Positions 3,467 through 21,166 of a stretch of DNA of 21,166 bases are shown here, one piece after another. Within the stretch, counting starts at the first letter, position 1. Each line of letters begins with the position of its first letter. The translations under genes were made by a program, and so were the position numbers. The notes under the pieces were generated by a model. That model searched no databases and was not told the origin of the DNA. It saw only the letters and a list, made by a program, of their open reading frames with translations. Where the stretch lies: IMG/VR virus record IMGVR_UViG_3300021959_000493, positions 1-21,166 of that record; one strand, given 5' to 3'. Source of the stretch: a virus.

Positions 3467-4258
3467 ATGGCCTGCAATACTGAGAGACAAAACTGTACAC
3501 CAGAAGAAATTATGGCTGCAGGGCAACTGCCTTGCGGAAAATTCATGAATGGTGAGAATTTACAAGCAGAACAGCTTGTATATGATTTAGCGTATAGAGA
3601 TCTCATTAACAATCAAGGAGTTCAGATTGAATACTTTATTAATACATTTACATTATCAGGTGCTAATCTGTTATACGGTGAAGAGCCTACAGCATCATAC
3701 TTAAATGGTATAGAAATGCAAATGTATGTAGAGCTATCTCAAGACGCTCTTACTCTTAGTCAGTTTGGATTTGACCCAGGTGATGACTTTACAGGCTTCC
3801 TTCACATTGAGACCTTTGCTAGCACAGTTAGTGCAGTATTATCTGCAAGAGAGCATTTCTCTCTTAATAATAGTTTCTCTGCTATTGAACCTCGTGCAGG
3901 TGATCTTGTTGAATTAGTTTCTCTCGGCTGTGATAGACCAGGAGGTAGAGGTCCAAAGATATATGAAATTACAGAACGCGTTGATGAAGATATATCAGCT
4001 ATTAATCCTATAATGGGTCATTATGTGTACCGTGTAAGAGCAAAACGTTATGACTACTCTTACAAGCCTAACTCACCGAAAGAGCAACAGAATGAGCAAG
4101 TATATGATGATAGCTTTACTGGCGTATTAAGTACGAATATTCCAGGAGATGAGGTATCTCCTACTAAGAGGTACGAGCATAACATTGATCAAGTATCTCA
4201 AGATGACGTCTATGATATGGATCAGAATAATACTGACATCTACGGTGGCTACTATTAA
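3467..4258 (+). CDS. Probable neck protein (T4 gp14-like)
   Basis: 263 residues. The pattern resembles T4 gp14, the neck protein joining head and tail. A GVQIEYFINT strand lies near residue 52, with LLYGEE soon after. FGFDPGDDFTG follows, then PRAGDLVEL and an IYEITERV strand, then NPIMGHYVYRVRAKRYDYS, and finally an Asp/Asn-rich C-terminal tail. T4 gp14 (256 residues) has the same order: a GVECYYV-type strand, LIFGED, FGMQVQDEVTLS, PKEGDLIYFP and FEINWV. I see this as a remote match from memory, not a computed one. The gene follows its upstream neighbour with 1 nt between stop and start, so it is coupled to it. Confidence 0.65.
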   Translation: MACNTERQNCTPEEIMAAGQLPCGKFMNGENLQAEQLVYDLAYRDLINNQGVQIEYFINTFTLSGANLLYGEEPTASYLNGIEMQMYVELSQDALTLSQFGFDPGDDFTGFLHIETFASTVSAVLSAREHFSLNNSFSAIEPRAGDLVELVSLGCDRPGGRGPKIYEITERVDEDISAINPIMGHYVYRVRAKRYDYSYKPNSPKEQQNEQVYDDSFTGVLSTNIPGDEVSPTKRYEHNIDQVSQDDVYDMDQNNTDIYGGYY

Positions 4259-12596: not shown

Positions 12597-12612
12597 GGAA
12601 CTCTGGGATAAT
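12597..12612 (+). promoter_or_regulatory. GGAAC-N5-GATAAT promoter element
   Basis: The one strict-family copy with a changed first base in the -10 hexamer. The start ATG (12622) is 25 nt from the first G, the longest distance in the set. Confidence 0.6.
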
Positions 12613-12621
12613 TAAGGTGTA

Positions 12622-12873
12622 ATGAAGATTGTATATTGTACCTGTGGTTGCCTGGTTAGACCTGCTCGTGTAGAAGCTGGCTTTAGTAATTGTATTAGAT
12701 GCGCTCACGAGAATCCAGTAGAGCCTCCTAAGGGTCGTATGGTTTATACTGGTAAGGTAGGAGCGGAGATTGAGATTATGTCTGCTGAGACTTGGCGAGA
12801 GAATAAGGACAGGTTCTGCCCTAAAGGTGCTCGTAGTGCTGTTAAGAACTTTAGTAAGAACGTTTGCGCATAA
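12622..12873 (+). CDS. Small zinc-ribbon-like protein
   Basis: 83 residues. Cysteines at 6, 8 and 10 (YCTCGC) and at 24 and 27 (NCIRC) make a plausible zinc ribbon. The rest holds a beta-strand MVYTGKVGAEIEIM and a basic C-terminal end. Small zinc proteins of this kind often bind nucleic acid or polymerase in phages; here that is inference. It ends inside the next GGAAC element (TAAGGAAC), a packing seen repeatedly in this region. Confidence 0.75.
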   Translation: MKIVYCTCGCLVRPARVEAGFSNCIRCAHENPVEPPKGRMVYTGKVGAEIEIMSAETWRENKDRFCPKGARSAVKNFSKNVCA

Positions 12874-12889
12874 GGAACACCATTATAAT
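12874..12889 (+). promoter_or_regulatory. GGAAC-N5-TATAAT promoter element
   Basis: Strict copy overlapping the upstream stop codon (TAAGGAAC). TATAAT ends 5 nt before ATG 12895. Confidence 0.75.
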
Positions 12890-12894
12890 TAGAT

Positions 12895-13149
12895 ATGGCA
12901 GCACAGAAAAAAGTTCAAGCTCGACGAATGGCTCAAGGCCACTATATGAAAGATGCGTTCTTCTTTATGCAAGACCTGCAGCTAGCTCTACTAGAGTATG
13001 ATGTAGGTGAGTTTACCCAGACTGATGCTCGATATGCTCAGCGTCTTATAGAAGAGCTCGATGAGATGAGACCTTTGATTCAGAAGCTAGCTAATAACTT
13101 AGAAGCTAACTCACCAGCAGATATCATAACTAACTGGAAAGATCTTTAG
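12895..13149 (+). CDS. Small helical protein, unknown
   Basis: 84 residues, basic N-terminus (MAAQKKVQARRMAQGHYMK) then long helices (FFMQDLQLALLEYD; YAQRLIEELDEMRPLIQKLANNLE). No enzyme motif. Leaderless start after a strict promoter copy. Confidence 0.75.
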   Translation: MAAQKKVQARRMAQGHYMKDAFFFMQDLQLALLEYDVGEFTQTDARYAQRLIEELDEMRPLIQKLANNLEANSPADIITNWKDL

Positions 13150-13164
13150 GAACTTCGTTATAAT
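13149..13164 (+). promoter_or_regulatory. GGAAC-N5-TATAAT promoter element
   Basis: Begins at the last base of the upstream TAG stop. TATAAT ends 6 nt before ATG 13171. Confidence 0.75.
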
Positions 13165-13170
13165 AATATT

Positions 13171-13440
13171 ATGAACCCAACAAGAGAAGATCTAATTGAA
13201 CTCGGCTTTCTTCAACCTGGTGATACTCACTGCAAGATTCCTAAACGTATACGTAAGATTTTTCTTACAGAGAGTGATCTAGAGTATGCGCAGCGCCATG
13301 GGCTTAATCGTCAAGAGATGAAGGACTTTAAAGAGGAGATGATGATTGAAGACGAAATTATTCGTGATCATCGTATCCTAGCAGCTCGAGAAAGGAACGA
13401 TAATTTTGACTCACCTCAAGCTCATTATTTTGCATGGTAA
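13171..13440 (+). CDS. Small charged helical protein, unknown
   Basis: 89 residues. It begins MNPTREDLIELGF and has a basic segment KIPKRIRKIFLTESDLEYA, then an acidic helix with many Glu. The R/K cluster and helix could suit nucleic-acid binding but no family is recognised. Its end overlaps the next gene by 7 nt (13434-13440). Confidence 0.75.
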   Translation: MNPTREDLIELGFLQPGDTHCKIPKRIRKIFLTESDLEYAQRHGLNRQEMKDFKEEMMIEDEIIRDHRILAARERNDNFDSPQAHYFAW

Positions 13441-13784
13441 TTAAATCCTTTAACTTTGAAACTAAAGAGCGTGTAGGTGATTGTGCACCTACTTACTCAA
13501 GGAGTTGGGAGCTTGATCTAACTGATGGAGTATACACCTTAACAATAGATGGATATAGCCCTGAGATCTTGGAAGAGAATGATCGTGAGTTATATTATTT
13601 TATCTCTAAAGGTAAACATAAACCTATCAAGATTCTTGAGAGTAGAGGCTTTAAGCAATGGGTCTATGCTCAGTGGCAGAGTGGTGATGTATGGGGATAT
13701 GCTCCTTACCTCTGTAAGTTCAAAAGAGATATCTTAGTATTTGGTAATGCTCAATGGTCAGAAATGGAAGCATTTGGCGACTAA
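13434..13784 (+). CDS. Small protein rich in aromatic residues, unknown
   Basis: 116 residues with many Tyr/Trp/Phe (WVYAQWQSGDVWGYAPYL). The 7-nt overlap with the upstream gene and no promoter of its own indicate translational coupling. Probably a compact beta protein. No homologue recognised. Confidence 0.75.
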   Translation: MVIKSFNFETKERVGDCAPTYSRSWELDLTDGVYTLTIDGYSPEILEENDRELYYFISKGKHKPIKILESRGFKQWVYAQWQSGDVWGYAPYLCKFKRDILVFGNAQWSEMEAFGD

Positions 13785-13810
13785 AGATGATAACAATATA
13801 AAAATATAAT

Positions 13811-14131
13811 ATGAGTACAAAGTGGCACGGTGGTAAAGGTGATAAGTCTAGAATGACAAATTATAACAAGTATGCAGATAATTATACCAATATCTTTGGT
13901 ACTAGGGCAAAAGCTACTGATGACATATGGGGCGAATCAGGTCATGTAGATATCATTGAAGGGGATACAATTTCATATAGAAAAACGAAGGATGACTTTA
14001 TTAATGTGGTTGTAGTTGCAGAAGCTCCTGGTAAATATGGAGAAGCAAGTGGCAACGCAGGTCACCCGTTTAATGTAACTCAGGATATATTTGAAGAAAA
14101 ATATAAACCCTATTTAAAAATTCTTGGATGA
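13811..14131 (+). CDS. Phage protein with N-terminal WHGGKG motif
   Basis: 106 residues. The N-terminus STKWHGGKGDKSRMTNYNKY followed by NIFG matches a short conserved start found in many small proteins of tailed phages (W-H-G-G-K-G-x-x-x-R); the function of that family is unknown to me. The rest shows a beta-strand DFINVVVVAEAPG. A TATAAT lies directly against the ATG. A perfect GGAAC partner is absent. Confidence 0.7.
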   Translation: MSTKWHGGKGDKSRMTNYNKYADNYTNIFGTRAKATDDIWGESGHVDIIEGDTISYRKTKDDFINVVVVAEAPGKYGEASGNAGHPFNVTQDIFEEKYKPYLKILG

Positions 14132-14140
14132 AATCTGAAT

Positions 14141-14314
14141 ATGGAAATGATAGCTATAGGATTTATTCTTGCAATTATAGTAGTTACAGCACTACCATAT
14201 ATGTTATGGAAGATAATATCTATACTTCCTAATCTATTATGGACCTGTTCTAAAGTAGCAACGTTTATAATTGTATTTGGAGCTATTGTTTTTTGTATCA
14301 ATAAACTAAACTAA
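14141..14314 (+). CDS. Small two-helix membrane protein
   Basis: 57 residues with two hydrophobic segments (about 4-22 and 39-53) joined by a short loop. It starts 9 nt after the upstream stop. Size and topology are compatible with a holin or another inner-membrane effector, but nothing specific marks it as one. Confidence 0.65.
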   Translation: MEMIAIGFILAIIVVTALPYMLWKIISILPNLLWTCSKVATFIIVFGAIVFCINKLN

Positions 14315-14319
14315 ATAAA

Positions 14320-14484
14320 ATGGACAAAAATAAAACAACAAACGTATCGTTAGGTCGTGATTATTTCTTAAACGCGTTACCAGATGATACAGATAGAGTA
14401 CGCGTTGAAGGTACTGATGTAAGCGTAGATAAAACTACACTCAAAGAGCTTGAAGCTCTCGGACTAATTAACCAACCTAAATAG
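14320..14484 (+). CDS. Small acidic protein, unknown (54 aa)
   Basis: 54 residues: MDKNKTTNVSLGRDYFLNALPDD and an acidic helical end. CTAAATAA stands 1-2 nt before ATG, too close to serve as its leaderless late promoter, so it is likely coupled to the gene before (5-nt gap). Confidence 0.6.
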   Translation: MDKNKTTNVSLGRDYFLNALPDDTDRVRVEGTDVSVDKTTLKELEALGLINQPK

Positions 14485-14485
14485 A

Positions 14486-14737
14486 ATGTATAAACATATT
14501 AAAGATATGCTCCAAAGTGGGCAAGTAATTCACATTGAGTTCACTAAAAAGAATGGTGAAACTCGTAAGATGAACTGTACAACTAATCTTGATCTAATTC
14601 CAGAAGATGCACACCCGTCAGGTGATCGAATGAGCTACGTAAATGAAGATGTAGTTAGAGCGTATGATATTGATGTGAAAGGATGGCGCGCTTTTAGAGT
14701 AGATTCTGTAAACGTTCTTGAGTCAAAGGAACTCTGA
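14486..14737 (+). CDS. WYL_2/DUF2693-like small phage protein
   Basis: 83 residues. The pattern IHIEFTKKNGETRKMNCT, then LIPEDAHPSG, then VRAYDIDVKGWRAFRVDSV fits the small Sm-like/SH3-fold family of phage and bacterial proteins (WYL_2, DUF2693), which ends in a G-W-R-x-F-R motif. The family may bind nucleic acid or ligand; its role in phage is not established. It starts 1 nt after the upstream stop, and its last codons contain the next GGAAC element (ESKEL encoded across AAGGAACTC). Confidence 0.75.
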   Translation: MYKHIKDMLQSGQVIHIEFTKKNGETRKMNCTTNLDLIPEDAHPSGDRMSYVNEDVVRAYDIDVKGWRAFRVDSVNVLESKEL

Positions 14738-14743
14738 TATAAT
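14728..14743 (+). promoter_or_regulatory. GGAAC-N5-TATAAT promoter element
   Basis: Strict copy placed inside the last codons of the upstream gene; the TGA stop is part of the spacer. TATAAT ends 5 nt before ATG 14749. Confidence 0.75.
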
Positions 14744-14748
14744 TAGGT

Positions 14749-15009
14749 ATGCAAAAGAAAGAAGAAATTCCAGAAGAGGTTATCAACTATTGCATTGATA
14801 ACAAAGTAAGTATTGTAGAGGGACTCCAGGCAATTGCCGATAGTAAAATTCAAAGCCTGGAGAAAAATATCGCTTCTCTTAAAAAAGATGCTCTAGATGA
14901 TATTTTCTCCATTAAGAAAGATATCTCCTCAGTGGAGAAGCTAAGTAAAGAGGATATGGATGATGTTGAGTCATTTCTCGATTTTCTAGATAAAAACGTT
15001 ACAGACTAA
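14749..15009 (+). CDS. Small coiled-coil protein, unknown
   Basis: 86 residues, acidic, long helix with heptads (IQSLEKNIASLKKDALDDI). Its stop overlaps the next ATG by one base (TAATG). No motif recognised. Confidence 0.75.
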   Translation: MQKKEEIPEEVINYCIDNKVSIVEGLQAIADSKIQSLEKNIASLKKDALDDIFSIKKDISSVEKLSKEDMDDVESFLDFLDKNVTD

Positions 15010-15233
15010 TGATAAATTTAATTAAGAAGTTATTTAAAAAAGAACCTGAGCCTAAGTTTGCTAAATGTCTTAACAATCAAACATGGCTTGAGCGACAGGT
15101 TGATGATGCTCTTTATAAGAGAGATACAATGAATTATCTATCAGGTAATAATTTACCAAATAAAGTAAAAGAAGCTGGCTTTATTTTAAAGCCATCCGAT
15201 AATTGGTATGATAAATATTATGACAATGAATAA
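15009..15233 (+). CDS. Small basic/aromatic protein, unknown
   Basis: 74 residues, N-terminal amphipathic helix MINLIKKLFKKEPEP and a C-terminal WYDKYYD cluster. Coupled to the upstream gene by TAATG. It overlaps the start of the EF-hand gene by 8 nt. Confidence 0.7.
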   Translation: MINLIKKLFKKEPEPKFAKCLNNQTWLERQVDDALYKRDTMNYLSGNNLPNKVKEAGFILKPSDNWYDKYYDNE

Positions 15234-15594
15234 AAAAATGACAGCAATTGTAATTGCTGCACTAACACTCACTGCTAACGCAAGTGACCACCACGATGAG
15301 AAGAAAGGACCTAAGGCAAAACCTGCAAAGGTTGATGGTAAGCGCAAGCTTCCTCCGGCTATGGCTAAGTTCGATAAGAACAAAGATGGAAAACTTTGTG
15401 AAGCCGAACGTAAAGTTGCCAAAGCTGCTTTTATGAAGCGGTTCGATAAGAACAAAGATGGCAAGCTCGACGAGAAAGAGCGTAAAGCTGCTATGGCTGA
15501 GCGCCGTAAAAATGCCAAAAAACCGAAAGGTAAAGGTAAGCTCCCAAAAGGAGCTAAAGGTAAGGTTAAACCTGCGCAAAAGAAAACCAAGTAA
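15226..15594 (+). CDS. Secreted two-EF-hand, Lys-rich protein
   Basis: 122 residues from ATG 15226 (ATGs at 15220 and 15208 are in frame). A signal peptide is clear: MNKKM, hydrophobic AIVIAALTLT, then a likely cut after ANA (residue 19). Two perfect EF-hand loops follow: DKNKDGKLCEAE (50-61) and DKNKDGKLDEKE (74-85), with Asp, Asn, Asp, Gly and Glu at the canonical calcium-binding places. The tail (92-122) is Lys/Pro/Gly-rich. The two loops are near-identical at DNA level. Such small secreted EF-hand proteins are common in some environmental bacteria and unusual in phages, so host origin is likely. Role unknown; calcium capture or envelope modification are possible. Confidence 0.82.
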   Translation: MNKKMTAIVIAALTLTANASDHHDEKKGPKAKPAKVDGKRKLPPAMAKFDKNKDGKLCEAERKVAKAAFMKRFDKNKDGKLDEKERKAAMAERRKNAKKPKGKGKLPKGAKGKVKPAQKKTK

Positions 15595-15854
15595 TGAACA
15601 ATGACCTGAGTATGTCTGAAAACTACTCTTTTTTTAATAAAGTGAAAGGGTTCATTCAGGTACACATAATAGCAAAAGATAGAGGTTTTAAATATGAGAA
15701 GGTGCCCAACACACCTGATTTTAATGATGAGAGAACCGCTCTAAAATATTGGGAGGCTAATAAAGACTCCATTACTGAGGCTAATTTTTATGATGATCAT
15801 CTCGTTATTATTAGAAAGGAGATTCATAACGTATGTACGACAAAGTTAAATTAG
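15594..15854 (+). CDS. Small protein, unknown
   Basis: 86 residues, coupled to the EF-hand gene by TAATG. Contains SFFNKVKGFIQVHIIAKDRG and a strand HLVIIRKEI. Its 3' end overlaps the next gene by 22 nt in another frame. Confidence 0.7.
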   Translation: MNNDLSMSENYSFFNKVKGFIQVHIIAKDRGFKYEKVPNTPDFNDERTALKYWEANKDSITEANFYDDHLVIIRKEIHNVCTTKLN

Positions 15855-16000
15855 ATAAACAAGATAGAGTTATCTATACTAAAACAGTTGAAGAGGGATT
15901 TATTTGCGAGAGTTGGTATGAATATACCGATACCGGTGAGCAAGTTCTTGTAAAATTATTTGAAGAATCAACCCCTACAGATTACACAGAGCATATTTAA
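15833..16000 (+). CDS. Small protein, unknown (55 aa)
   Basis: 55 residues: MYDKVKLDKQDRVIYTK, ICESWYEYTDTGEQVLVKLFEE. It is one of the few genes with a Shine-Dalgarno-like AAGGAG (15816-15821), though 11 nt from ATG. Its stop overlaps by 4 nt the convergent gene at 15997. Confidence 0.6.
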   Translation: MYDKVKLDKQDRVIYTKTVEEGFICESWYEYTDTGEQVLVKLFEESTPTDYTEHI

Positions 16001-16482
16001 AATAAATATTTGAGAATCAGCTCTTCTTCTGTAAGGATTTTCTCACCTTCATCTTCTTGTACTGAATCAAAACCCTCTTCGTATTCTTCGTAATAAGAGT
16101 AAATGTCATCTGCATCTGCTTCATAACTAAATGAAGATGATCCTTTAGATGTTTGTATTACTTCATATTTATCCTTAATACCAGCAACTATTAATTGTTT
16201 AAGTAATTTAGGACCAGTCTCTTTTTCAGACCGAGTCATAAAATCTTTAACTTGATTACTAGTAAATTTGCCCTTAAGAGTTAAGATAGGGTCATCGTAA
16301 AGACCCCAAACGTGAATAGCTAAATATTGCCTGGTAATATCTGCGCAATCTCGTATAACATAATATGCAGATTTCTTTTTTACCTCTATGCCAGTATCAG
16401 GCTTTTTATGAGCTCTATCAGCAGGACCGTAAAGTTTGGCTATTTGTTCCTTACTATTGTCTAAGATTACTTCTTCGAACAT
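15997..16482 (-). CDS. Late protein of unknown function, acidic C-terminus
   Basis: 161 residues on the minus strand within an otherwise plus-strand region. The N-terminal two thirds is mixed alpha/beta (SAYYVIRDCADITRQYLAIHVWGLYDDPIL; FTSNQVKDFMTRSEKETGPKLLKQLIVAG). The C-terminal 45 residues are Glu/Asp/Tyr-rich (IYSYYEEYEEGFDSVQEDEGE). A late promoter lies 5 nt before ATG, so it is probably a late, perhaps virion-associated or morphogenesis protein. No family recognised. Confidence 0.78.
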   Translation of the reverse strand: MFEEVILDNSKEQIAKLYGPADRAHKKPDTGIEVKKKSAYYVIRDCADITRQYLAIHVWGLYDDPILTLKGKFTSNQVKDFMTRSEKETGPKLLKQLIVAGIKDKYEVIQTSKGSSSFSYEADADDIYSYYEEYEEGFDSVQEDEGEKILTEEELILKYLF

Positions 16483-16487
16483 ATGTA

Positions 16488-16493
16488 TATTTA
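16488..16493 (-). promoter_or_regulatory. Late promoter of the 16482 gene
   Basis: The minus strand reads ACTAAATATACAT then ATG, with TAAATA 5 nt from the start codon. It diverges from the GGAAC element at 16526. Confidence 0.65.
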
Positions 16494-16525
16494 GTCTCTC
16501 TGCTAAAATTAGTGGATATCCATAA

Positions 16526-16541
16526 GGAACCTCGATATAAT
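16526..16541 (+). promoter_or_regulatory. GGAAC-N5-TATAAT promoter element
   Basis: Strict copy. TATAAT ends 7 nt before ATG 16549 (an in-frame TTG at 16546 is 4 nt away). Confidence 0.75.
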
Positions 16542-16548
16542 TAGGTTG

Positions 16549-17001
16549 ATGATATTATTAGACCCGTCTCCTAGCATCAAAAAGCATACGAAGATTGACT
16601 TTAATCTTCTCAGTCAGCTGCTCACTACATTACTTGAATCAAACCATAAGCGAGATATCAATATTGTGGCGAAAGTTTATAAGAGTAAAATTGCAGGTAC
16701 TTCGCTATGTACTCACGTAGATGGTTGTAGATTTCTTATTAACTTAGACGTCTCAAATCTTAAGAGACGTTACATATTCGGCTCTATTTTGCATGAGCTT
16801 CGACATTGTGTACAGAAGAATCTATTTGGGTATTGGCCTGATACTCACGCTATGAAGACTTGGAGAGATTACTGGTATTCAAAAGAAGAGATAGATGCTC
16901 GTAAGATGGAGAAGCTTACGACACAGATGATTAAAGCATACGACTCGATGATTAATATGGGCATACAGTTTAAGAAGTATAATCTAAACAAGATTGGATA
17001 A
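16549..17001 (+). CDS. Small zinc metalloprotease-like protein (HExxH)
   Basis: 150 residues from ATG 16549. ILHELRHCVQ contains H82-E83-x-x-H86, the zinc-binding and catalytic motif, preceded by a helix-compatible RRYIFGS. Downstream SKEEIDARKME supplies an acidic third ligand candidate (E114) in the E-x-D-A context of gluzincins. The small size fits minimal gluzincin or ImmA/SprT-like peptidases. Substrate unknown; phage or host regulatory proteins are possible targets. Expressed from a strict GGAAC element, so probably early. The motif is clear; active protease function is inferred. Confidence 0.78.
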   Translation: MILLDPSPSIKKHTKIDFNLLSQLLTTLLESNHKRDINIVAKVYKSKIAGTSLCTHVDGCRFLINLDVSNLKRRYIFGSILHELRHCVQKNLFGYWPDTHAMKTWRDYWYSKEEIDARKMEKLTTQMIKAYDSMINMGIQFKKYNLNKIG

Positions 17002-17017
17002 GGAACCTCAGTATAAT
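17002..17017 (+). promoter_or_regulatory. GGAAC-N5-TATAAT promoter element
   Basis: Strict copy directly after the upstream TAA. TATAAT ends 6 nt before ATG 17024. Confidence 0.75.
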
Positions 17018-17023
17018 TAGATT

Positions 17024-17122
17024 ATGAAACAAGAAGATCGACAGTTTTTCGAAAATGTAGTTTTTGGATGTTTAATCATCCTTGTAGGAGTTTTAGTAGT
17101 TGTATCAATTTTACCAAAATAA
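17024..17122 (+). CDS. Single-span membrane miniprotein (32 aa)
   Basis: 32 residues: a polar start MKQEDRQFFENV, then a hydrophobic span of about 18 residues (VFGCLIILVGVLVVVSIL) and PK at the end. The strict promoter with 6-nt spacing to ATG is good evidence that it is real. The topology suggests N-in single pass. Possible roles include modulation of a host membrane complex, unproven. Confidence 0.72.
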   Translation: MKQEDRQFFENVVFGCLIILVGVLVVVSILPK

Positions 17123-17126
17123 ACAA

Positions 17127-17306
17127 ATGCCCGAACCAGCAGAATCAAAAAGTAATAAGCACTTCCGTATCTCGTTAGTTAAATCATTCTTACGAATAGG
17201 TGGATGTGTTGCAGCATTAACTCCATTAGGAACTAACGAATCAATCATAGCTCTAGCTGTATCATTCCTCGCAGCTGAGATCTTAGGAATTTTTGAGGAA
17301 CTCTAA
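17127..17306 (+). CDS. Small membrane protein (59 aa)
   Basis: 59 residues from ATG 17127, 4 nt after the upstream stop. Polar, basic N-terminus (MPEPAESKSNKHFRIS) and two weakly hydrophobic segments (VKSFLRIGGCVAALTPLG; ESIIALAVSFLAAEILGIF). The last codons GAGGAACTC contain the next promoter element. Unrecognised. Confidence 0.68.
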   Translation: MPEPAESKSNKHFRISLVKSFLRIGGCVAALTPLGTNESIIALAVSFLAAEILGIFEEL

Positions 17307-17312
17307 TATAAT
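17297..17312 (+). promoter_or_regulatory. GGAAC-N5-TATAAT promoter element
   Basis: Strict copy overlapping the last codons and TAA stop of the upstream gene. TATAAT ends 6 nt before ATG 17319. Confidence 0.75.
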
Positions 17313-17318
17313 ATAAAT

Positions 17319-17522
17319 ATGAAGTACGACATTGTATTCAAGACAAAAGAAGCATTCACAGCAGCTAAAACCCTACTCACTCATCATTATGCTTGTCGAT
17401 TTAATGACCTAGATGATTATAGAATTGAGTTCTATCTAGAAGGAAGGCGCGCGACAGCTAAAAAAATGCTACAAGATGTAAATGCTGTTGAAGAAGTTGA
17501 CATGGAGTTTGTAACTGCTTAA
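17319..17522 (+). CDS. Small ferredoxin-like-fold protein, unknown
   Basis: 67 residues with beta-alpha-beta-beta-alpha-beta order (YDIVFKT, then a helix, YRIEFYLE, a helix ATAKKMLQ, VEEVDMEFV). Such a compact alpha/beta fold is common in small phage regulators, but no specific family is recognised. Confidence 0.72.
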   Translation: MKYDIVFKTKEAFTAAKTLLTHHYACRFNDLDDYRIEFYLEGRRATAKKMLQDVNAVEEVDMEFVTA

Positions 17523-17538
17523 GGAACCCCAATATAAT
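17523..17538 (+). promoter_or_regulatory. GGAAC-N5-TATAAT promoter element
   Basis: Strict copy right after the upstream TAA. TATAAT ends 6 nt before ATG 17545. Confidence 0.75.
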
Positions 17539-17544
17539 AATAAC

Positions 17545-17955
17545 ATGAACAACACCATTAAGCCTATAGGTAACGGCGACTTTGAAGTACAGAAAGTTCC
17601 TCCCTCAGCGGAGATTCTGGAATCAGGAAAGCCTAAATTCAGTAAAGACGATAAGGCAGCAAAGAAGTTGTTCCAGGATATCCAATTAGCCTATGATGCT
17701 CTGATCATGTCGAAGGTCGATACTATGAGACCTGGTGCGGTTGTAACACAAGAGCTCTCTGATAAGCAGGAGACTCTCTATACTGAGTATGATGATTTAG
17801 TTGATATCACTGTGAAGGCTACCGGTGGTTATGCTCCTGCATGGTTTACTGACCCACAGACATGTGATCTATTTGAGATAGCTGGTATTGATTGTAAGGA
17901 TATGACCTACAATGAAATGTGTGAGCTAGAAGGTTCGATGGCGTTTGGAGATTAA
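17545..17955 (+). CDS. Protein of unknown function (136 aa)
   Basis: 136 residues, mixed alpha/beta: an N-terminal extended part (KPIGNGDFEVQKVPPSAEI), a helix around 40-57, then a Cys-containing segment DPQTCDLFEIAGIDCKDMTYNEMCELEG. It ends FGD, like the gene ending at 13784. No family recognised. Confidence 0.75.
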   Translation: MNNTIKPIGNGDFEVQKVPPSAEILESGKPKFSKDDKAAKKLFQDIQLAYDALIMSKVDTMRPGAVVTQELSDKQETLYTEYDDLVDITVKATGGYAPAWFTDPQTCDLFEIAGIDCKDMTYNEMCELEGSMAFGD

Positions 17956-17961
17956 ATTAAT

Positions 17962-18030
17962 ATGAAACTAAATATACTACTACCACTAATAATTATCACT
18001 ATTGTGTTGATCTTAACCGGATGCACGTGA
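17962..18030 (+). CDS. Ultra-short lipoprotein (22 aa)
   Basis: 22 residues: MKLNILLPLI, a hydrophobic core, and a perfect lipobox LTGC at 18-21, then only T before TGA. After processing only Cys-Thr with lipid would remain. It starts 6 nt after the upstream stop. It may be a genuine lipopeptide, a leader, or a truncated larger lipoprotein; downstream sequence to 18081 shows no in-frame continuation. Confidence 0.5.
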   Translation: MKLNILLPLIIITIVLILTGCT

Positions 18031-18059
18031 AGTTCATGCTAGACTCCCAGTTGGGATAA

Positions 18060-18075
18060 GGAACTCTGATATAAT
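18060..18075 (+). promoter_or_regulatory. GGAAC-N5-TATAAT promoter element
   Basis: Strict copy identical in its spacer (TCTGA) to the one at 14728. TATAAT ends 6 nt before ATG 18082. A small CCCA-GT-TGGG inverted repeat lies just upstream. Confidence 0.75.
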
Positions 18076-18081
18076 TAAAGT

Positions 18082-18267
18082 ATGAAAAGAGACAAGTACT
18101 TAGTAATCGTAAGCTTTAAAGGACGTGTTGAGCGTATTGTTGTAGAAGCTACTTCAAGACCAGATGCTGAAAATGTTGTTTATGAGAAGAAGAAGCATTT
18201 GTTTGATCATGATGTTATACACGGTACAAATACAATTAACATTATGTCTTCACGTAGAATGTCCTAA
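18082..18267 (+). CDS. Small protein, unknown (61 aa)
   Basis: 61 residues, MKRDKYLVIVSFKGRVERIVVEATS then a charged end. The strand pattern is roughly like that of the partial gene at 21019 (NYIAVKGRDTLRKIVVV), so the two may be distant paralogues. No known function. Confidence 0.72.
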   Translation: MKRDKYLVIVSFKGRVERIVVEATSRPDAENVVYEKKKHLFDHDVIHGTNTINIMSSRRMS

Positions 18268-18283
18268 TCGCTTGATACTTTAA

Positions 18284-18299
18284 GGAACTTAACTATAAT
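18284..18299 (+). promoter_or_regulatory. GGAAC-N5-TATAAT promoter element upstream of the mini-tmRNA locus
   Basis: Strict copy. TATAAT ends 6 nt before ATG 18306 (an in-frame ATG at 18300 would be upstream of the expected +1). It probably also drives the RNA at 18412. Confidence 0.75.
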
Positions 18300-18305
18300 A
18301 TGATT

Positions 18306-18401
18306 ATGAGCATTGAAAAACTAAAAGACACGTTAATTGTATTATGGATTATATCAGTATCCCTCTACATAGGGTTAGATTTACTTCAAAAATTTAACTA
18401 G
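18306..18401 (+). CDS. Single-span membrane miniprotein (31 aa)
   Basis: 31 residues: MSIEKLKDT, a hydrophobic span LIVLWIISVSLYIGLDLL, and QKFN. The strict promoter geometry selects this ATG. It ends 10 nt before the tmRNA-like RNA, so both are likely on one transcript. Confidence 0.68.
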   Translation: MSIEKLKDTLIVLWIISVSLYIGLDLLQKFN

Positions 18402-18411
18402 AATTAACAAC

Positions 18412-18475
18412 GGGGGTGACGTTGGTTTCGACGTAATAAAAATTACGGATGAGGGTTCAAATCCCTCCACCTCCA
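18412..18475 (+). ncRNA. Mini-tmRNA: tRNA-like domain of tmRNA without tag or pseudoknots
   Basis: A 64-nt RNA. The acceptor stem has 7 pairs: GGGGGTG (18412-18418) with CACCTCC (18468-18474), including a G3:U70 wobble, followed by A73 (18475); these are alanyl-tRNA synthetase identity elements also used by tmRNA. The next 14 nt (18419-18432) end GGTTTCGAC, the tmRNA D-segment signature, and have the same length as in E. coli tmRNA. A P2-like stem GTAAT/ATTAC (18433-18437, 18442-18446) is closed by AAAA. The linker GGAT matches GGAC of tmRNA, and the T arm is GAGGG-TTCAAAT-CCCTC (18451-18467). CCA is not encoded. The resume codon, tag frame and pseudoknots are absent. Structure and kinship are read from sequence; function is inferred. 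Confidence 0.85.
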
Positions 18476-18479
18476 TTAA

Positions 18480-18485
18480 TAAATA
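18480..18485 (+). promoter_or_regulatory. Late promoter abutting the mini-tmRNA 3' end
   Basis: AATAAATACTCAT then ATG 18491, with TAAATA 5 nt from the start. The box starts 5 nt after the RNA discriminator base, so late transcription starts just past the RNA. Confidence 0.6.
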
Positions 18486-18490
18486 CTCAT

Positions 18491-18643
18491 ATGGCATTTG
18501 AACATTTACATTTAGATGATATAGGTAGAATAATTTATAAATTCGCTAGATCAGTTGGATATACCGAAGAATGGTGGTTTTCATATGATAGCTTGAGTAA
18601 CAAAACAATCGATAAATATATTAAAGAAAGAAAACCATTTTAA
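18491..18643 (+). CDS. Small late protein, unknown (50 aa)
   Basis: 50 residues from ATG 18491: MAFEHLHLDDIGRIIYKFARS and WWFSYDSLSNK. A longer in-frame reading from 18449 would begin inside the RNA T arm and is rejected. Late promoter geometry supports this start. No family recognised. Confidence 0.68.
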   Translation: MAFEHLHLDDIGRIIYKFARSVGYTEEWWFSYDSLSNKTIDKYIKERKPF

Positions 18644-18644
18644 G

Positions 18645-18815
18645 GTGAAAAAAATATTAAAAGCTTTTAAAAGTAAAAAGAATCGTAAAATAGATTACAA
18701 TCAAGAGCTAGACAATTTTAGACAAATGGTGATCGATTTACACCTTAAAATAACAAGATTAGAAAAAGAAAATCGTCGATTGAAACGAGTTATCAAAAAT
18801 CTCTCTGAAACATAA
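18645..18815 (+). CDS. Basic coiled-coil miniprotein, GTG start (56 aa)
   Basis: 56 residues starting with GTG 1 nt after the upstream stop: MKKILKAFKSKKNRK, then a heptad helix QELDNFRQMVIDLHLKITRLEKENRRLKRV like a short leucine zipper. It ends at TAA, which is fused to the next GGAAC element. A basic plus zipper arrangement could bind DNA or RNA, unproven. Confidence 0.62.
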   Translation: MKKILKAFKSKKNRKIDYNQELDNFRQMVIDLHLKITRLEKENRRLKRVIKNLSET

Positions 18816-18831
18816 GGAACTTCATTATAAT
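18816..18831 (+). promoter_or_regulatory. GGAAC-N5-TATAAT promoter element
   Basis: Strict copy directly after TAA. TATAAT ends 6 nt before ATG 18838. Confidence 0.75.
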
Positions 18832-18837
18832 AAACAT

Positions 18838-19122
18838 ATGAACAAAGACATTTACAGAGTTCAAAAAAGCCCTAGTTATTCACTGTATACTAAAAACGGA
18901 GCTAATCATAGAATTCACGGCCCTGCATTAAGCATTGGTGAAAGTCAATATTTTTACATCAAAGGTAAACGGTTAACCCTATCGGGTCATGAAGATTATG
19001 TTAGATCTTACCTTATTCATGAAGATAGTTACCAGGTGGAGAAGGAATATTTTGAAAAGGCATTAGAATCTTCTGATGGTATTTTTATTCATAATTTGGA
19101 ATTAGCTGAAAATGTCGATTGA
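18838..19122 (+). CDS. GPA-repeat protein (phage/virus H-R-x-x-GPA type)
   Basis: 94 residues. The stretch NGANHRIHGPALSIGESQYFYIKGKRL (about 20-46) matches the H-R-x-x-G-P-A...Y-x-x-x-G-x-x-L repeat seen in proteins of many tailed phages and giant viruses, here as one copy. C-terminal acidic helix. It overlaps the next gene by 11 nt. The function of this repeat is not known to me. Confidence 0.72.
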   Translation: MNKDIYRVQKSPSYSLYTKNGANHRIHGPALSIGESQYFYIKGKRLTLSGHEDYVRSYLIHEDSYQVEKEYFEKALESSDGIFIHNLELAENVD

Positions 19123-19297
19123 ATCTCCGCATTGGTATTTAGAGATTATACATTTGCATGAAAATTTAATTACAGAGAGTAAACATTTGGAAGGTCCTTT
19201 TATAAATCAAGACGATGCTGAATATCGTAAGGAAAAAATTCTTACTAAACACGATAGCATACGTGATCAGATAACAATTAATCTCATAATGTTGTAA
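19112..19297 (+). CDS. Small protein, unknown (61 aa)
   Basis: 61 residues, MSIESPHWYLEIIHLHENLITES then charged helices. Overlaps the upstream gene by 11 nt and has no promoter of its own, so coupled translation is likely. Confidence 0.65.
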   Translation: MSIESPHWYLEIIHLHENLITESKHLEGPFINQDDAEYRKEKILTKHDSIRDQITINLIML

Positions 19298-19302
19298 ATA
19301 CT

Positions 19303-19611
19303 ATGCAAAAGTATAAAAAGGTAACCAAAGTTAGTTGGGTAAATAAATCAGTGCGGGTTGCAGAGATAGCCAAGCTAGCGGAGTTAATTAAAGAAGGAGA
19401 AGAAGAGCATCTAGAGCATTACAATGACTTAGTACTTAGTTATGCTAAAGATACTAACATGCAAGCTTCAGCCTCTGAGACTGATCCAATTGCTTGGGAT
19501 TTATTTTGTGAGTTAGCTGGTGGTGATCCTGGTAAGATTGCTTATGCTGGAGGTAGGAGAGGTTTAAACTATCTAGAAATGGTTAAGTTTAATCGAGGAT
19601 ACTGGCGATAA
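19303..19611 (+). CDS. Protein of unknown function (102 aa)
   Basis: 102 residues, basic start MQKYKKVTKVSWVNKS, acidic helix GEEEHLEHYNDLVLSYAKD, and a Gly-rich end (ELAGGDPGKIAYAGGRRGLNYLE). It follows the upstream stop by 5 nt. No motif recognised. Confidence 0.72.
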   Translation: MQKYKKVTKVSWVNKSVRVAEIAKLAELIKEGEEEHLEHYNDLVLSYAKDTNMQASASETDPIAWDLFCELAGGDPGKIAYAGGRRGLNYLEMVKFNRGYWR

Positions 19612-19620
19612 CTAATTAAA

Positions 19621-19704
19621 ATGGACCCTATCCCTACTATCACTCTAGCTGTTGTAATTATTGAGCTTGTTATATTGGTATTCCTATTCAGATCTAATAA
19701 ATAG
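19621..19704 (+). CDS. Single-span membrane miniprotein (27 aa)
   Basis: 27 residues: MDPIPTITLAVVIIELVILVF and LFRSNK at the end. It starts 9 nt after a stop and ends 4 nt before the lipoprotein ATG. The hydrophobic span with positive C-terminus predicts an N-out orientation. A partner of the lipoprotein that follows is a possibility only. Confidence 0.6.
   Translation: MDPIPTITLAVVIIELVILVFLFRSNK
19698..19703 (+). promoter_or_regulatory. Late promoter of the lipoprotein gene
   Basis: AATAAATAGTTCT then ATG 19709, with TAAATA 5 nt from the start codon. It overlaps the end of the 27-codon gene. Confidence 0.6.
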
Positions 19705-19708
19705 TTCT

Positions 19709-19951
19709 ATGAAGACCTTACTTATATTACTTGCTTACTGTCTTATTAGTTGCGAAGGAGGCTATAGTTCGTATACGTATCAATCAGTACCGACTACTAC
19801 TGTACATAGAACCTATACACCAGTCTATACACCGGTATATTATTCTGCTCCTAGGAGAGTCTATTGTCCTCCACCAGTTGTCAGATATCAATATAGAACA
19901 CCTAGATTACATAGTGTTGAAACTAGAAGCTATAAGAAAAAGTGCCCATAA
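19709..19951 (+). CDS. Tyr/Pro-rich lipoprotein
   Basis: 80 residues from ATG 19709. A short signal sequence MKTLLILLAYCLISC with lipobox LISC puts the lipidated Cys at 15. The mature part is rich in Tyr, Pro, Thr and Arg (TYTPVYTPVYYSAPRRVYCPPPVVRYQYR) and looks unstructured, ending in KKKCP. Outer-membrane lipoproteins in phages include o-spanins, but the neighbour gives no clear inner-membrane spanin partner. A late promoter makes a lysis or envelope role reasonable, not proven. Confidence 0.75.
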   Translation: MKTLLILLAYCLISCEGGYSSYTYQSVPTTTVHRTYTPVYTPVYYSAPRRVYCPPPVVRYQYRTPRLHSVETRSYKKKCP

Positions 19952-20163
19952 AAACGAAATACGCAGTCGTCGGTGAAAATAACGATGTAATTATTACATT
20001 AGATAACAAAACTGATGCAATAGATTACGCGTTTGAGTATTTTAGGTCTGTTGATGATGATCGTAATCTAAATCAAGTAAGTGTTATAGATATTGACGGC
20101 AATATAATCTTTACAAGTTTTCGTACACCAATGACATATTATTTTTCTGGTCCGATGACATAA
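19942..20163 (+). CDS. Small protein, unknown (73 aa, GTG start)
   Basis: 73 residues starting at GTG 19942, overlapping the lipoprotein end by 10 nt. KTKYAVVGENNDVIITLDN and QVSVIDIDGNIIF suggest a compact alpha/beta fold. The stop TGACATAAGGAAC region runs into the next promoter element. No family recognised. Confidence 0.62.
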   Translation: MPIKTKYAVVGENNDVIITLDNKTDAIDYAFEYFRSVDDDRNLNQVSVIDIDGNIIFTSFRTPMTYYFSGPMT

Positions 20164-20179
20164 GGAACTCCGTTATAAT
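20164..20179 (+). promoter_or_regulatory. GGAAC-N5-TATAAT promoter element
   Basis: Strict copy directly after TAA. TATAAT ends 6 nt before ATG 20186. Confidence 0.75.
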
Positions 20180-20185
20180 AAGAGT

Positions 20186-20383
20186 ATGAAAGAGAGAGTT
20201 GAGAGTTTAGTTGAGTCAGGAAAGCATGTGTTCTTAGATATCTGCCCTAGACGTGATGGTAAGATGTGGTCAGAAGAAGGTGTCATCAAGAGGCTCGATG
20301 CTAATGGTTGGTTTCAGATTGAGTTTATGGGCTCTACTAACGGATGGCATGTTAATCAAATCGTTAACATCAATATAGATTAA
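20186..20383 (+). CDS. Small SH3-like protein, unknown (65 aa)
   Basis: 65 residues. A short helix MKERVESLVESG is followed by beta-strands (HVFLDICPRRDGK, EEGVIKRLDANGWFQIEFMG, GWHVNQIVNIN), which looks like a small SH3/Sm-type barrel. It is the last gene before the RNA locus. Confidence 0.7.
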   Translation: MKERVESLVESGKHVFLDICPRRDGKMWSEEGVIKRLDANGWFQIEFMGSTNGWHVNQIVNINID

Positions 20384-20507
20384 AAGTTTTCATCCAAGAG
20401 AGGTGCGTCAAGTGAGTATAAACACGGTTAAGCGAGTAGGATAAGACGTTAAATAATGAACTATCGTGGGAGTAAGGGTGCCCTCAGAGAAAGACCCTAA
20501 TCTTTAA
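20384..20507 (+). other. Non-coding leader of the RNA locus
   Basis: No credible reading frame. Possible local pairings are GCGTC (20405-20409) with GACGT (20445-20449, one G-U) and AGGGT with ACCCT near 20474-20499. The 10-mer GTGGGAGTAA (20466-20475) recurs at 20711-20720 on the far side of the tRNA-like RNA. It may be a third structured RNA or a spacer; I see no known family. Confidence 0.4.
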
Positions 20508-20523
20508 GGAACTATAATATAAT
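20508..20523 (+). promoter_or_regulatory. GGAAC-N5-TATAAT promoter of the tRNA-like RNA
   Basis: Strict copy, the only one with no ATG at 21-25 nt. The expected +1 is near 20530 and the folded RNA starts at 20539. Confidence 0.7.
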
Positions 20524-20538
20524 ATAGAAACAAAATAT

Positions 20539-20647
20539 GGCCCGGTCATCTAACTGGGAAGAACCACCCGGTAGCAATGCTAGCAAGGCTACAACAAGGC
20601 GACGGCTGAGTATGGGAGGTAATGCAGGTTCAATACCTGCTCGGGCC
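20539..20647 (+). ncRNA. tRNA-like RNA with an expanded anticodon loop
   Basis: Acceptor stem GGCCCGG (20539-20545) pairs fully with TCGGGCC (20641-20647, one G-U). Counting on from there, positions 8-25 fit tRNA rules: U8, A14, A15, G18, G19, A21 and a 3-bp D stem (TCT/AGA). The T arm is GCAGG-TTCAATA-CCTGC (20624-20640). Positions 27-31 (20565-20569) pair with 39-43 (20614-20618) except one A-A, but the loop between is 44 nt, not 7, lacks U33, and has its own possible stem GTAGC/GCTAC. No CCA is encoded. So it is a tRNA relative that cannot act as an ordinary adaptor as written, either an intron-like insert or a new regulatory RNA. An open frame across it is a shadow. Confidence 0.65.
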
Positions 20648-20649
20648 TG

Positions 20650-20717
20650 CTCCTAGCAATTAACGAGGCGTCAAAGACTTCACGCCTACAACCCAGAAGG
20701 GAGAGGCTAGGTGGGAG
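20650..20717 (+). ncRNA. Possible three-way-junction RNA element
   Basis: Closing stem CCTAGC (20652-20657) with GCTAGG (20706-20711). Inside it are AGGCGT (20666-20671) with ACGCCT (20682-20687), and CCC-AGAA-GGG (20692-20701). Such nested perfect stems are unlike the surrounding coding DNA. It may be the 3' part of the same transcript as the tRNA-like RNA, or a terminator-less processing element. Confidence 0.5.
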
Positions 20718-20720
20718 TAA

Positions 20721-20736
20721 AGAACTACGATATAAT
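20721..20736 (+). promoter_or_regulatory. AGAAC-N5-TATAAT promoter element
   Basis: A family copy with A in place of the first G. TATAAT ends 5 nt before ATG 20742. Confidence 0.65.
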
Positions 20737-20741
20737 AAGGT

Positions 20742-21011
20742 ATGAAAGAGAGTAAGTATGTTGTTGTAGCTTATACTAAGACAAATACTAATGTACTGAA
20801 AGCTCTCAACCTCTGCATTCATGAAGTAAAGGATGAAGTACAGAACGTATGGGTAGAGAAGGTAGTACCAGTCAATAGAGAGCGTAAGAATGAGATGGTT
20901 AATGGGTGGACGCCTGGGACAGAAGAGTTTAATAGTGCATGGCGAGATACAGACCCAATCGATAGACCGATTAAATGTATCGTGCATACAGTAAAAGGAA
21001 CTCGAATATAA
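20742..21011 (+). CDS. Small protein, unknown (89 aa)
   Basis: 89 residues: MKESKYVVVAYTKTNTNVLKAL, a helix, NVWVEKVVPVNRERK, then VNGWTPGTEEFNSAWRD and IKCIVHTVKGTRI. Small alpha/beta protein. The last codons AAAGGAACTCGA contain the next promoter element. No family recognised. Confidence 0.72.
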   Translation: MKESKYVVVAYTKTNTNVLKALNLCIHEVKDEVQNVWVEKVVPVNRERKNEMVNGWTPGTEEFNSAWRDTDPIDRPIKCIVHTVKGTRI

Positions 21012-21012
21012 T
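20997..21012 (+). promoter_or_regulatory. GGAAC-N5-TATAAT promoter element
   Basis: Strict copy within the last codons of the upstream gene. TATAAT ends 6 nt before ATG 21019. Confidence 0.75.
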
Positions 21013-21018
21013 AATAGT

Positions 21019-21166
21019 ATGAACGATACCGTTGGAAAGAACTATATTGCTGTTAAAGGAAGAGATACTCTTAGAAAGATTGTTGTTGTATCGCCTCGTG
21101 TAGTGCTTACTGAATGTGAATATAAAGAGTTAGGATGGCGATATGAGCTCTGGCCATCCGAGCCAT
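21019..21166 (+). CDS. Small protein, unknown (partial, runs off the right edge)
   Basis: At least 49 residues are visible: MNDTVGKNYIAVKGRD, TLRKIVVVSPRVVLTEC, EYKELGWRYELWPSEP. The strand order resembles the gene at 18082. The start is set by the promoter geometry. The end is outside the window. Confidence 0.65.
   Translation, partial: MNDTVGKNYIAVKGRDTLRKIVVVSPRVVLTECEYKELGWRYELWPSEP

Follow-up and report, generated by a model that had tools for sequence, protein, structure and literature searches.

A tmRNA reduced to its tRNA-like domain in a marine phage, and the breadth of this tag-less form among phages

A transfer-messenger RNA (tmRNA) consisting of the tRNA-like domain (TLD) only is described for Mycobacterium phage DS6A in two papers (PMC4131195 and PMC11915505, citing Mao et al. 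2009). According to the same papers, a TLD molecule like that of DS6A is a strong inhibitor of tmRNA in E. coli even when it cannot be charged, possibly because it titrates SmpB. The tag-less tmRNAs of mitochondria have been conserved alongside SmpB (PMC11915505), two plastid tmRNA genes are tag-less too (PMC3985003, PMC11915505), and an engineered TLD of 25 + 4 + 34 nt, closed by UUCG, binds SmpB in a crystal (PMC3985003). Here we describe a 64-nt RNA gene comprising only the TLD half of tmRNA, located at positions 18412–18475 (plus strand) of a marine phage sequence, the 21,166-nt stretch of IMG/VR record IMGVR_UViG_3300021959_000493 (hereafter the window). With DS6A as precedent, the kind to which this RNA belongs is already known; so far it has been regarded as an oddity of a single mycobacteriophage, and here it appears as a large phage class. 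What is new in this work is the breadth of the class, the covariation of its stems, its near-invariant charging site and its two size classes. In the literature searched, which largely lacked subscription papers, we met no report of so many and such diverse members, of the covariation or of the second size class; this is not proof of novelty.

The tmRNA covariance model RF00023 matched positions 18412–18478 with 65.6 bits (E 8.4e-24; gathering score 47) and was the sole significant match when all Rfam families were searched in the window. The alignment spans the model from its first to its last position (1–374) with about 310 internal positions deleted, and the pseudoknot domain is absent. The tag-coding mRNA-like part with its resume codon is absent as well, the two strands of stem P2 being only 4 nt apart. 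ARAGORN called neither a tRNA nor a tmRNA in the window, and a test for a tRNA cloverleaf found the RNA sequence without an anticodon arm.

The acceptor 5′ strand GGGGGTG (18412–18418, G3 at 18414) pairs at 7/7 positions with the 3′ strand CACCTCC (18468–18474, U70 at 18472), which is followed by the discriminator A73 at 18475. The degenerate D segment, ACGTTGGTTTCGA (18419–18431), ends in GGTTTCGAC and is of the GG-TTCGAC type. The P2 stem (18432–18447) consists of GTAAT/ATTAC closed by an AAAA loop at 18438–18441, and has 5 bp, or 6 bp when C18432:G18447 is counted. The GGAT linker (18447–18450) and the T arm GAGGG TTCAAAT CCCTC, with a 5-bp stem (18451–18467), were read directly from the letters. 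The window does not encode CCA (TTA follows the discriminator); many relatives do. Thus, the parts that the initial annotation had listed, namely the acceptor with G3:U70, A73, the D segment, P2 with its AAAA loop, the GGAT linker and the T arm, are all in place, and the tmRNA covariance search that it had suggested gave a match above the gathering score.

The same form was then found in other phages. A strict pattern scan of IMG/VR yielded a set of four contigs, all above the RF00023 threshold. Three of them (L002, L003 and L004) share 85–89% identity with the window in the region surrounding the RNA; the remaining one (L001) has a 64-nt RNA whose P2 is closed by UUCG, although elsewhere it is unrelated to the window. 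A first open pattern for viral sequences, in which TTCGAC, GGA and most of the T arm were the only fixed parts and position 3:70 was free, matched 60 IMG/VR contigs, 50 of which have a 7/7 acceptor stem. Both G3:U70 and A73, neither of them required by this pattern, are present in all 50 structured matches. The other 10 matches have no pairing acceptor 5′ half and resemble tRNAs or ssrA 3′ fragments. Relaxing the T stem in the pattern gave at least 120 loci, and a pattern admitting inserts of 35–65 nt gave 51 further loci, part of them valid. After the structure filter, at least 136 distinct TLD-only RNAs were retained, 105 of them less than 85% identical, both numbers being lower bounds. Full-length tmRNAs, mostly permuted, account for the matches in Mosig, Axy11, MA9V-3, Mendera, CcrRogue, XacN1 and other phages, which were set aside.

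Insert lengths fall into two classes, of about 15 nt and of 26–33 nt, with a thin tail up to 65 nt. The short class, to which the window RNA belongs, has P2 with a short loop; in the long class, which includes the majority of the members, P2 is accompanied by an A-rich internal loop and a further hairpin, frequently CCGCAYGCGG. Among the 105 non-redundant RNAs, the GG before TTCGA is kept in 81–90% (TTCGA itself being within the search filter), and the linker is GGAC in 81, GGAT in 12, GGAG in 6 and GGAA in 6 (GGA also being in the filter). In bacterial genomes a looser pattern matched at least 119 loci, and only one passes the structure filter among the matches listed, a Victivallaceae contig of a metagenome-assembled genome (L166) that is possibly a prophage; the class therefore looks enriched in phages. 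The other bacterial loci, which failed the filter, are presumably tRNAs and chance matches. Near tRNA genes, the cultured Streptomyces phages LuckySocke, pSt2308 and BRock carry an unannotated long form of 78 nt that scores 57–65 bits with RF00023; in LuckySocke it occupies record positions 17977–18054. ARAGORN called a tmRNA at 1 of 92 TLD-only loci, and with implausible limits; this program was used in a published survey covering 18,146 phage genomes (PMC9004378), which would have overlooked the TLD-only form.

Since acceptor-stem and T-stem pairing entered into the filter, the independent evidence for selection on structure comes from P2 and, in the first open pattern, from position 3:70. 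The first five P2 positions inside the C:G pair are paired in 97, 93, 92, 88 and 81% of the 105 RNAs, and each shows six standard pair types; in none of 500 shuffles did pairing exceed 61%. The P2 differences among the window, L002, L003 and L004 preserve the stem. Distant relatives of the window phage have other acceptors that still pair, GGGTAGC/GCTATCC in L286 and GGGGCGG/CCGCTCC in L037, and their P2 is likewise different and paired. Compensatory changes, which the initial annotation had named as a check, are thus present in the stems. With more than 100 relatives, covarying stems and a near-invariant G3:U70, the description of the RNA as the TLD of tmRNA without its tag part is borne out, as is the view that it is not a full tmRNA gene in random decay.

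The 3′ ends of ssrA are common integration sites, and an attachment-site remnant, or a tmRNA gene decaying after integration at ssrA, could in principle leave such a sequence; matches with an unpaired 5′ half (L007, L008, L057 and L060) do resemble ssrA fragments of this origin. An integrase is nevertheless encoded in just 4 of 50 viral records carrying the TLD-only RNA and is always more than 9 kb from it, more than 100 diverse copies keep both halves and a closed P2 with covariation, and insert lengths cluster near 15 and 26–33 nt. This origin is highly improbable for the window RNA and, judging from the covariation, is to be rejected for the TLD-only class. Equally remote is the idea that the RNA is one of the two pieces of a permuted tmRNA, the coding piece being located somewhere else. 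Permuted tmRNAs do occur in marine phages such as Pelagibacter phage Mosig, but the order in the window is acceptor 5′ strand, P2, T arm and acceptor 3′ strand with P2 closed on itself, and the permuted-tmRNA models RF04321 and RF01849–RF01851 have no match in the window. A permuted gene was rejected on these grounds.

The window RNA sits between two small phage genes and is phage-encoded, as indicated by a T4-like terminase and other phage genes in the same window. The nearest relatives of the terminase large subunit are from Pseudoalteromonas, Sinorhizobium and cyanobacterial phages (33–39% identity), and BLAST searches of the window and of the RNA, near and distant, found no close match among named phages. 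Neither integrase nor SmpB was seen among the window proteins searched. RF00023 was detected in all of the 50 viral records, above threshold in 46, and SmpB was found in none of these records, so that host SmpB must serve; the absence of SmpB and the rarity of integrases are weak evidence, since most of these records are fragments. In one 123-kb record (G036), a TLD-only RNA and a full-length tmRNA of 392 nt are separated by 31 kb, and another record of 136 kb (G048) has two TLD-only RNAs. The tag predicted for the full-length phage tmRNA at L366 1089–1480, SPEYRIRLLTNTKW, is unusual; this phage carries a TLD-only RNA too.

A putative −10 box, TAGAAT (18399–18404, plus strand), ends 7 nt before G1, a spacing like that of the phage promoters, and the transcript of the window RNA may therefore begin at its mature 5′ end. 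About 12 promoters of the window phage read AAGGAACT-N4-TATAAT, with ATG 6–8 nt further, and in relative L037 a full copy of this promoter type stands directly before the RNA. As AAGGAAC(T/C)-N4-TATAAT, the repeated promoter precedes about 12 genes across window positions 12597–21040, and its close ATG suggests that the phage mRNAs are leaderless. A TANNNT box at a fixed distance was not seen across the whole TLD-only family, so a start at G1 is proposed for the window group only.

As to function, we propose with moderate confidence that the tag-less phage tmRNA is an alanylatable, host-SmpB-dependent dominant-negative in host trans-translation. Having no resume codon, the TLD-only RNA would be unable to switch the ribosome to a tag frame; it would displace host tmRNA, and tagging and proteolysis would be suppressed during infection. 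The initial annotation had raised the blocking or diverting of host trans-translation, which fits the published work on the DS6A kind (PMC4131195, PMC11915505). That G3:U70 is nearly invariant points to a role for the charged form, over and above SmpB titration. Several points weigh on the other side. Published inhibition needs no charging, while an invariant G3:U70 implies selection for charging, and simple titration therefore fails to explain its conservation. Growth of phage lambda-immP22 requires trans-translation (PMC2862035), and the gain from blocking it is not clear for every phage. The window 64-mer folded alone slightly favours another hairpin, in which the D segment pairs with the P2 5′ strand (−24.6 versus −23.0 kcal/mol for the canonical fold). 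The claim about structure is accordingly based on comparison, and in relatives L002, L012, L017, L026, L037 and L286 the minimum is the canonical fold.

The main rival, which we consider possible though rather unlikely, is ribosome rescue without a tag. Charged RNA and host SmpB would enter stalled ribosomes and accept the nascent chain, which would be released by drop-off or through another factor, the route proposed for tag-less mitochondrial tmRNAs, and the ribosomes would stay available to the phage. Such a role would account for a charging pair that is near-invariant though inhibition does without charging, and it agrees with the retention of the mitochondrial forms together with SmpB (PMC11915505) and with the dependence of lambda-immP22 growth on ribosome rescue rather than proteolysis (PMC2862035). 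When the resume codon of E. coli tmRNA is changed to a stop, however, phage plating falls to 1.3e-5 and lambda-immP22 is not supported (PMC2862035); a tag-less RNA is thus not expected to complete rescue, and the earlier suggestion that the window RNA releases ribosomes stalled on leaderless phage messages is left without support. Minimal tag translation is reportedly required for release, according to a title in the reference list of PMC2862035, and TLD-like RNA inhibits tmRNA in E. coli (PMC4131195). Rescue without a tag is kept open because simple titration leaves the near-invariance of the alanine pair unexplained. It is improbable, in our judgement, that trans-translation is not the target at all and that the RNA is a decoy or substitute directed at something else that recognizes the tRNA elbow or acceptor stem, for instance a defence nuclease that cleaves tRNAs, the alanyl-tRNA synthetase or a tRNA modification enzyme. 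Some copies lie within tRNA clusters, as in the Streptomyces phages, an ordinary tRNA is found within 400 nt at 17 of 92 loci, and tRNAs encoded by phages are known to protect against defences that cut tRNAs; yet these RNAs have no anticodon arm, which is the usual target of such nucleases. Their D segment is, besides, of the tmRNA type, and the D arm has extensive SmpB contacts in published structures (PMC3985003).

More broadly, we put forward, somewhat tentatively, that many phage groups share alanylated tag-less tmRNAs that would act in charged form on the stalled ribosomes of the host, giving a single alanine to the nascent chain and blocking or redirecting rescue, a widespread device invisible to the standard annotation tool. 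The occurrence of the TLD-only form in more than 100 phages suggests a common way of interfering with host rescue of stalled ribosomes, and if the control of trans-translation is true, phages own a common RNA weapon or aid at this site. The cultured carriers LuckySocke, BRock and pSt2308 make the question of function testable.

Other features were observed in the window. An RNA-like element of about 100 nt at 20407–20510 (GTCAAGTGAGTATAAACACGGTTAAGCGA ... ACGTTAAATAA ... GCCCTCNNAGAAA) has apparently covarying stems and no Rfam match, and was found in 29 IMG/VR contigs. It lies 10–28 nt downstream of the TLD-only RNA in L187, L211, L256, L354 and L286, and 1.9 kb downstream in the window, L003 and L004; in L286 it begins about 6 nt past a TATAAT box. 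A second tRNA-like RNA at 20539–20651 has a 7-bp acceptor (GGCCCGG/TCGGGCC), a short D arm, a T arm and, where the anticodon arm would be, a variable domain closed by a long stem, ACCACCC/GGGAGGT. It is conserved in L002–L004, L341, L342, L344, L353 and L356, and ARAGORN found nothing in it, even with introns allowed. A small protein with EF-hand matches is encoded at 15208–15594, and a weak match to a fluoride riboswitch at 4136–4219 (19.5 of 34 bits, below threshold) is probably due to chance.

Compared with bacterial tmRNA (ssrA, RF00023), the window RNA shares the acceptor with G3:U70, A73, the degenerate D segment, the T arm and the start of P2, whereas the tag reading frame and pseudoknots of the approximately 360-nt molecule have no counterpart in its 64 nt. 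Full-length phage tmRNAs (Mosig, Melnitz, Bongo and the Streptomyces BE phages) are, like it, phage-encoded ssrA, but they retain the tag and pseudoknots and many are permuted; ARAGORN finds many of them and almost none of the TLD-only form. The jakobid mitochondrial and Mallomonadaceae plastid tmRNAs (~65 bp) are similarly tag-less, with no mRNA-like part (PMC11915505, PMC3985003); the mitochondrial ones are usually permuted, while the phage RNA is in one piece, with no phage SmpB found, and the TLD-only phage RNAs may inform how the tag-less mitochondrial tmRNAs work. The T. thermophilus TLD fragment (PDB 2CZJ; 25 + UUCG + 34 nt) is practically the natural L001 design (64 nt, UUCG) and is near the window RNA, which has AAAA instead; as a laboratory construct, it is evidence of SmpB binding and not of natural function. 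The RNA of DS6A (tmRNA Website tmID 11587) is, like the window RNA, phage-encoded, with little beyond the TLD and no tag frame, and its kind is reported as inhibitory (PMC4131195, PMC11915505), a likeness drawn from published description; DS6A represents a different phage group, and the window RNA belongs to the short class with an AAAA-closed P2.
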